Source: Candidatus Bathyarchaeota archaeon (GTDB lineage Archaea; Thermoproteota; Bathyarchaeia; 40CM-2-53-6). From it: a stretch of 7,888 bases of DNA. This document shows positions 2,608 to 4,524 of the stretch, one piece after another. How positions within the stretch are numbered: position 1 is the first letter of the stretch; the number at the start of each line of letters is the position of its first letter. The position numbers and the translations under genes were made by a program. The notes below the pieces were generated by a model. The model was not told where the DNA came from. It saw only the letters and a list, made by a program, of their open reading frames with translations, and searched no databases. The stretch spans positions 1-7,888 of the forward strand of contig VBBQ01000001.1 of the NCBI GenBank assembly GCA_005888755.1. Reading direction: 5' to 3'.

Positions 2608-3240
2608 CTAGCGGATTAGTCCAACGTTTCTTGCAATATAGTGTTCGATCAGAGAGCCCGCGATCAACACGGCCAGTAGGTTCTGATTTCCTATCCAGAC
2701 CACCGCGCCTATGACCTCGGATACTGTCAGTATCAGCAGTCCAGTGAAGACGAGCCTGGTGCTGGAGAGCTTGAGGAAAGGCAGGCTCTTCTTCACATTG
2801 TCAGCGACATGGTGCTCCACGAACAGGGCCGCGAGGAAGAACGTGAAGGCGAGCAACCCGTTTACAGGTATCAGTTCCAGCCATACAAGCCAGATCGCGG
2901 ATTCCAAGCTGCTGAAGATGAGAATCTCCACGAACTGTTTCCCGGAGACGAATCGCCCGGTAGCATCCACCTGGGTAATGATATGCTCGACGAGGAGGAA
3001 TACGGCGAGGATTATTGCTGCAAAACCGGCCGCCCCGGTACGGGAGAATATCCCTCCTAGCTGCAGGATGGAGTAAGCCTGTCCTAGAACCGTAGAGGGG
3101 TCAGTGCCGTTCGAGAGCGCTAGCCACTTGACTAGGCCAACGATCTCTATCCCGGTGAATATTATTACGACGAGAAAATGGGCGATCCCTGGGAAGTGTA
3201 ACAGTCCAGGCTGCTTTTCAGCAACCTCTGGGCGAGTCAA
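2608..3240 (-). CDS. six-helix membrane protein with three-fold hairpin repeat, unrecognised family
   Basis: The 210-residue protein has six predicted membrane helices and very little else. Odd helices each carry Glu-x6-Trp: E32/W39, E113/W120, E175/W182. Even helices each carry (V/I)EH: residues 84-86, 141-143 and 198-200. The pattern implies three helical hairpins of one repeat, with a 25-30 residue insertion between the first pair (about residues 42-69). Conserved Glu and His inside or at the edge of the membrane could bind a metal or carry protons, but that is inference. I do not recognise the family. The start is TTG at 3240: no ATG occurs anywhere in the frame, and a stop lies six codons upstream. 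A weak purine-rich AGGAAG lies before it. It converges on the CoA-transferase vestige and diverges from the gene at 3416. It is very likely real, given its hydrophobic periodicity and repeat. Confidence 0.85.
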   Translation of the reverse strand: MTRPEVAEKQPGLLHFPGIAHFLVVIIFTGIEIVGLVKWLALSNGTDPSTVLGQAYSILQLGGIFSRTGAAGFAAIILAVFLLVEHIITQVDATGRFVSGKQFVEILIFSSLESAIWLVWLELIPVNGLLAFTFFLAALFVEHHVADNVKKSLPFLKLSSTRLVFTGLLILTVSEVIGAVVWIGNQNLLAVLIAGSLIEHYIARNVGLIR

Positions 3241-3415: not shown

Positions 3416-3907
3416 ATGAAAACACCGTTGCTGATACCACTAATCATAGTGGCTTTAGTCGGCTCCTTGGCCGGTTTCTATCTCTATGACCGCTTCGTAC
3501 CGACTTCATCCTCAAGCTGTAGTGACCCCTCGTCCATTAGCAGCCACGTCTATCATCCGTACAGACTTCAAATTGTAAAATCTTGCATTACTGCTTCCGG
3601 AACAGTAGACAAGGTCATAGAGGAAGCTGACGGCGACGTTCACCTCCGAACGAATCTAGATCGGGCTTACAGCAGCCTCACGAACAGCGCCAACGACCAG
3701 TATCAATACGGCGACCTAGTTGTGGAAATAATCTGCGTAAATCCACCTAGCCAGACAGACGCGCAGTCCGCCTGCCAGAACTATACAAACCAGATACCAG
3801 TACCAAGCGCCGGCCAGCACATCACGATCACCGGCCCCTACGTTCTAGACACCAACCATTACAACTGGGCAGAAATACACCCGGTATACTCGCTAGTAAT
3901 CGGGTAG
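3416..3907 (+). CDS. membrane-anchored or secreted protein, probably OB-fold-like, uncharacterised
   Basis: The 163-residue protein starts with a Lys and a hydrophobic segment (about residues 4-24) that acts as signal or anchor. A Ser-rich linker (30-43) and an extracellular domain follow. The domain carries landmarks I associate with an uncharacterised family seen in soil archaea and bacteria: HVYHPYRLQ (44-52), SGTVDKV (61-67), DGDVHLR (72-78), GDLVVEIIC (99-107) and, near the end, GPYVLDTNHYNWAEIHPV (140-157). A short beta-rich domain with a V-x-G-x-V type strand and a final W/IHPV strand suggests an OB-type barrel; this is fold inference. Cys57, Cys107 and Cys120 could form disulfides, and Cys35 sits in the linker. 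The ATG has no Shine-Dalgarno sequence, and an AT-rich TTAGTTA near 3387-3393 fits a leaderless promoter weakly. No enzymatic residues are evident. Confidence 0.8.
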   Translation: MKTPLLIPLIIVALVGSLAGFYLYDRFVPTSSSSCSDPSSISSHVYHPYRLQIVKSCITASGTVDKVIEEADGDVHLRTNLDRAYSSLTNSANDQYQYGDLVVEIICVNPPSQTDAQSACQNYTNQIPVPSAGQHITITGPYVLDTNHYNWAEIHPVYSLVIG

Positions 3908-4089: not shown

Positions 4090-4524
4090 TCATCCTTGCA
4101 CGAGGATTGTTCCGGTCATCTGCGGCTGATGGAATTTGCAGTGGAAGGTGAAGTTTCCTGTCTGGCTGGTTGTGATTGTTATGTTCGCGTTCTGGATCGT
4201 CGTCGATTGTGCTGCTACAACAACGTCGTTTGCGTAGGGCGCGTTTATGGTAAACGAGTGGTGTTGGTCGGTGGGGTTGTAGAAGTGAATTGTTATGGTA
4301 TCGCCTTTGTTAACGACGATGAGGTTCGACGAGTAGACATAGTCCGAGCTGAGATTTGATGGGGCGGTAAAGCTCAGGTCTTGAGCGAAAAGGTAGAGGT
4401 CTCTCGTTTGCGGTGTCGGGGCAGTGTGTGCGAAGTAGCTAGCCCCTAATCCCGTCACGCCTCCGAAGAGTGCTGCTAGCAATATCGTTGCGATGAGTAG
4501 GTTGCGGGTGCCCCAAGAGACCAT
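4090..4524 (-). CDS. membrane-anchored cupredoxin (type 1 copper protein)
   Basis: This 144-residue protein is predicted to carry electrons through a blue-copper centre on the outer face of the membrane. Residues 8-30 form one hydrophobic helix that serves as signal anchor, and the rest is a single beta-sandwich domain. Copper ligands of the type 1 pattern are visible: a His in DQHHSF (His88 or His89) and then Cys129-x2-His132-x3-Met136 in FHCKFHQPQM. The strand with VVNKGDTITIHFYNPT (70-85) is typical of the fold. There is only one Cys at the site, so it is not a CuA centre of cytochrome oxidase subunit II. The ATG has no Shine-Dalgarno sequence, and a good TATA-like box lies 27-28 bases upstream, so the message is probably leaderless. 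It is divergent from the propeller gene. Redox partners are not evident in this window. Confidence 0.9.
   Translation of the reverse strand: MVSWGTRNLLIATILLAALFGGVTGLGASYFAHTAPTPQTRDLYLFAQDLSFTAPSNLSSDYVYSSNLIVVNKGDTITIHFYNPTDQHHSFTINAPYANDVVVAAQSTTIQNANITITTSQTGNFTFHCKFHQPQMTGTILVQG

Follow-up and report, generated by a model that had tools for sequence, protein, structure and literature searches.

The window, that is, the whole stretch of DNA that was analyzed, corresponds to one entire contig of 7,888 bases from a 2.0 Mb genome of a soil member of the Bathyarchaeia. The ORF under study is located on its reverse strand at positions 2608-3240 (stop codon included), starts with a TTG codon at position 3240, and encodes a 210 amino acid protein that is predicted to be a membrane protein with six helices. 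We identified 12 intact homologues of this protein, including those of group A (79-82% identity to the window protein), those of group B (33-39% identity), and one from a second genus (53% identity). The TTG start is also present in the group A orthologues, and dN/dS values of 0.09-0.18 in these orthologues indicate that the gene is under purifying selection. The features of the gene are listed below.

2608-3240, reverse strand: gene of the predicted three-hairpin membrane protein
2959-3186, reverse strand: putative hairpin unit 1 (residues 19-94), with AF2 helices at 19-43 and 62-94
3124-3147, reverse strand: E32-x6-W39, invariant in the 13 aligned sequences
2983-2991, reverse strand: VEH at residues 84-86, with E85 and H86 invariant
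2791-2943, reverse strand: putative hairpin unit 2 (residues 100-150), with AF2 helices at 100-123 and 128-150
2881-2904, reverse strand: E113-x6-W120, invariant, as is W117
2812-2820, reverse strand: VEH at residues 141-143, with E142 and H143 invariant
2623-2757, reverse strand: putative hairpin unit 3 (residues 162-206), with AF2 helices at 162-184 and 189-204; a single continuous helix in the group B model
2695-2718, reverse strand: E175-x6-W182, invariant
2641-2649, reverse strand: IEH at residues 198-200, with E199 and H200 invariant

Elsewhere in the window, a remnant of the C-terminus of a class III CoA-transferase is present at 2494-2603 on the forward strand, possibly starting from about 2400 (LGSPMRFYETRPKKTISAPQLGQHTKEILAELGYS*), and resembles the end of the intact gene located at 122-1300. 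The ORF at 3416-3907 (forward strand) encodes a small protein whose N-terminus includes a hydrophobic segment and which has no Pfam match; relatives of this protein are encoded in L040 and L041, where they adjoin the three-hairpin membrane gene. Finally, the ORF at 4090-4524 (reverse strand) encodes a cupredoxin-like protein (PF13473, E = 2e-9) that is secreted or membrane-anchored.

Internal repeats and the conserved signature

Our sequence comparisons indicate that the window protein very probably consists of one helical hairpin repeated three times in tandem, with divergence among the copies. Each copy has a Glu and, seven residues further on, a Trp in the first helix, whereas the second helix carries a Glu directly followed by a His. 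An earlier note on this DNA had described an internally triplicated protein with E-x6-W and (V/I)EH in all three units; the motifs were confirmed at their exact positions in the ORF, and profile comparisons strongly support the triplication. The hairpin profiles align in register (hhalign; P = 4.4e-6 for units 1 and 2, 2.1e-6 for units 2 and 3, and 1.7e-4 for units 1 and 3), and the score of each pair exceeded all of those from 200 column shuffles in which hydropathy was preserved (z = 8.1, 10.6, and 5.9, respectively). When the window protein itself was shuffled 200,000 times, at least three E-x6-W motifs arose in 52 cases, none of which also had three EH motifs.

Alignment of 24 membrane hairpins together left E, W, E, and H as the only invariant columns, and these were still the sole invariant columns once the hydrophilic hairpins described below were added. 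In a tree of the hairpins, which are short sequences, the copies of unit 2 from groups A and B clustered together, as did those of unit 3 and, with weak support, those of unit 1. Since the hairpins group mostly by position and not by protein, the triplication predates the split between both groups. Unit 1 has a long loop in group A (about residues 44-69).

The family alignment included the window protein and its 12 homologues (33-82% identity to the window protein), which come from two genera within a single family of Bathyarchaeia. All 12 signature residues are invariant among these 13 members, which share 42 invariant columns in total. The only conserved Trp residues are W117 and those of the three E-x6-W motifs, the only conserved His residues are those of the three EH pairs, and no Gln, Asp, or other variant was found at the nine Glu/His signature positions in any of the 13 members. 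The signature Glu, His, and Trp residues thus occupy some of the most conserved columns, a point that the earlier note had proposed to check, and instead of varying freely they are retained down to 33% identity. It should be noted that, in a protein family as narrow as this one (the 21 genomes examined all belong to one family), the invariance is due partly to limited divergence and partly to constraint.

Predicted structure and comparison with known families

The AF2 model of the window protein, built with 13 sequences, has six main helices (mean pLDDT = 72.5, pTM = 0.71), and the model of a group B homologue reached a pLDDT of 85.3 and a pTM of 0.80. Both models have helices at the expected positions. 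In hairpin 3, the window model has two helices, whereas helices 5 and 6 form one unbroken helix (140-184) in the group B model. Two homologues carry a short insertion where this helix is continuous, which argues for a turn within hairpin 3. Lys and Arg residues are concentrated in the loops between hairpins and are few in the loops within them, suggesting that both ends of the protein lie inside. A topology of six membrane helices with the N- and C-terminal ends inside is therefore likely. In a helical-face analysis, E32/W39, E113/W120, E175/W182, E85, E142, and E199 deviated from the conserved face by no more than about 40 degrees, and the His residues of the EH pairs were at +78, +110, and +77 degrees from it, an equivalent placement in the three units. 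It is likely that the Glu of the first helix and the Glu-His pair of the second helix face the conserved core in each hairpin, and the models suggest that they likely lie at about equal height, counted from the hairpin turn.

Searches with full proteins, hairpins, and profiles in Pfam, NCBIfam, PDB sequences, and PHROGs returned nothing credible; one short PHROGs match of a homologue (E = 2e-4 over 16 residues) was disregarded. The earlier note knew of no described family with this signature, and none was matched in these four databases, so that the E-x6-W/EH hairpin family appears, by sequence, to be undescribed. Fold searches with both AF2 models gave no match at E <= 0.001. The top VIA scores (Z = 6.3 and 6.7) were to mixed helical proteins (PNS1, CysZ, UCP1, and rhodopsins), which were set aside as probably sharing a common arrangement. 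Among them, CysZ scored Z = 5.8 and 6.7 against the two models (rmsd = 4.9 and 5.8), within the range that the tool calls common, and UCP1, which scored Z = 5.7 against one model and 6.1 against the other (rmsd = 5.2 and 6.0), ranked level with unrelated chains. The best match in a viral fold library was a 209 amino acid protein of Bodo saltans virus (TM about 0.55, E = 0.28).

Mitochondrial carriers (SLC25, PF00153) have six transmembrane helices arranged as three tandem hairpins, the same plan as in the window protein, but their repeats span about 100 amino acids, compared with about 50-75 in the window family. The defining carrier motif PX[DE]XX[KR] is absent in all 13 members, no Pfam match to the carriers was found, and the family is not assigned to them here. 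Ferritin-like di-iron bundles resemble the window family in having, per hairpin, a Glu on the first helix and a Glu and a His on the second. These bundles have an ExxH motif and two hairpins, whereas the window family has adjacent EH residues, hydrophobic membrane helices, and three hairpins. Neither ExxH nor HxxxH motifs nor Cys residues were found in the family.

Distribution and single-hairpin relatives

A hairpin match was found in 17 of the 21 genomes of the GTDB family of the window, and nearly all sampled genomes of its Bathyarchaeia genus carry the hairpin in some form. The full-length profile, searched against 398 genomes of the phylum, matched only in the genus of the window; genomes outside the phylum were searched with the single sequence only. 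No relatives were found in the viral contigs, plasmids, and phages searched. Two genomes have decayed group B copies in which the third hairpin alone is retained (L042, 4831-5034, reverse strand; L043, 6408-6596, forward strand), and L042 belongs to a genome with an intact group A gene as well.

A hairpin-profile search of relatives recovered all membrane copies and, in addition, single hairpins in two further protein families. The single-hairpin sequence is FTDIEDITLEKWL...LLVEHMIAE; these hairpins read FTDIEDITLEKWLDAENAGQDELAKKILDAGLLVEHMIAE or near, with the spacing of E-x6-W and EH unchanged and with charged, hydrophilic helices, suggesting that these segments are probably water-soluble. 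The first family (L075-L080; hmmsearch E = 3e-6 to 2e-4 per genome) has no name in Pfam or NCBIfam. Its hairpin has an identical E-x6-W ... VEH signature, but it is single and hydrophilic, and is followed by a C-x2-C...C-x2-C zinc ribbon and then by a charged low-complexity tail. The second family (L081-L083) has weaker matches (E up to 1e-3) and harbors an E-x6-W ... FEH hairpin that is also alike, but there is only one, and it lies outside the hydrophobic C-terminus that follows, which probably forms two transmembrane helices. In L081 (2397-4540, forward strand) and L082 (2053-4207, reverse strand) the hairpin gene of this second family is located beside a gene for a GvpD/KaiC-like ATPase, directly downstream of it in L081, and also beside a gene for an AAA ATPase with a Lon-type C-terminal domain (domain search performed for L081 only).

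The profiles of the hydrophilic and membrane hairpins match each other with P = 1.3e-6 (z = 14.3, 300 shuffles). When the E, W, E, and H columns were masked, the score of the hydrophilic hairpins dropped from 31.6 to 14.0, compared with 13.9 for the best shuffle, indicating that much of this match is the signature itself. In addition, a profile built solely from the hydrophilic hairpins failed to find the window protein at E = 0.01. Both kinds of hairpin are likely homologous, and convergence on the signature is the less likely alternative. The presence of single hydrophilic copies in two other families of the same lineage thus suggests that the E-x6-W/EH signature is a portable module and not only an intramembrane feature. 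The intramembrane Glu and His residues that the earlier note described are indeed conserved in the membrane protein; its description of them as intramembrane was too narrow, since hydrophilic single hairpins share the signature.

Candidate roles of the Glu/His cluster

The explanation that we consider best as a whole, and hold tentatively at a little under an even chance, is a triplicated hairpin carrying a cation-binding cluster. Each hairpin would provide a carboxylate/carboxylate/imidazole cluster, and the three copies would unite these clusters in the middle to inner half of the membrane into one Glu/His site binding a cation, most likely a metal ion and, as a second option, a proton, with the Trp residues packing above it. 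In the single-hairpin proteins, an equivalent site would arise by self-assembly. Two Glu and one His per hairpin are a typical set of metal ligands. The presence of a metal or proton site in the three-hairpin protein is in itself possible but doubtful: the EH residues are adjacent and do not form a di-iron ExxH motif, no operon partner of the gene is conserved across genomes, the window model has a mean pLDDT of only 72.5, and the group B model (pLDDT 85) keeps residues 140-184 as an unbroken helix.

Close behind this cation site, which we rank first, is a purely structural role, somewhat unlikely in our estimation, in which the E, W, E, and H residues link helices, as well as neighboring hairpins, to each other through hydrogen bonds and salt bridges (for instance, from the His of one hairpin to the Glu of the next), holding together the bundle, or a homo-oligomer of single hairpins, without a cation or catalytic role. 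Residues that stabilize the fold would be invariant as well, in all three units the His is set off laterally from the core face, as suits a contact with the next hairpin, and the signature is kept in hydrophilic single hairpins, where a membrane ion path would be needless. Yet three Glu-His pairs and three more Glu residues in membrane helices, all strictly invariant among the 13 members without a single Gln or Asp substitution, would be costly for stability alone. A small ion or proton channel or transporter, with a Glu/His ring as its selectivity or gating site and in spirit like the three-hairpin mitochondrial carriers, is ranked third and is unlikely. Six predicted transmembrane helices paired into three hairpins, acidic and His residues conserved within the membrane, and UCP1 as a weak structural neighbor of both models would fit such a protein, but unrelated helical proteins commonly reach Z values like those of UCP1, the carrier motif is missing, and the hydrophilic hairpins carry the same signature, which counts against it serving only transmembrane ion movement. 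Last in order, and improbable, is an intramembrane enzyme (e.g., a hydrolase or oxidoreductase) that uses the cluster. Buried Glu and His residues could support metal-dependent catalysis, but the family has no match to a catalytic family, no conserved gene partners, and none of the Cys, HxxxH, or ExxH elements.

Extending the cation-binding reading to both kinds of protein, it is conceivable, if rather unlikely in this full form, that the E-x6-W/EH hairpin is a new cation-binding module with a soluble single form and a triplicated six-helix membrane form, the latter with a pseudo-three-fold Glu6-His3 site. Membrane proteins with internal repeats have been described before, but a polar signature shared between such a protein and a hydrophilic single-hairpin protein within a single archaeal lineage is, to our knowledge, rare. 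Should the two kinds of hairpin indeed be homologous, this would be a short and testable case of a hairpin that moved between water and membrane and was multiplied into a bundle. The analysis also names a family that was apparently unannotated until now and is widespread in the Bathyarchaeia genus of the window.

The genes neighboring the membrane gene vary among genomes. A GvpD-like ATPase and a small-protein family are encoded near some copies; in the genome of the window they are located on a different contig, so that they provide no guilt by association. The small-protein family has 3-5 copies in each of six genomes, and in two genomes one lies just upstream of the membrane gene (L016, 4497-4883; L017, 4412-4876).
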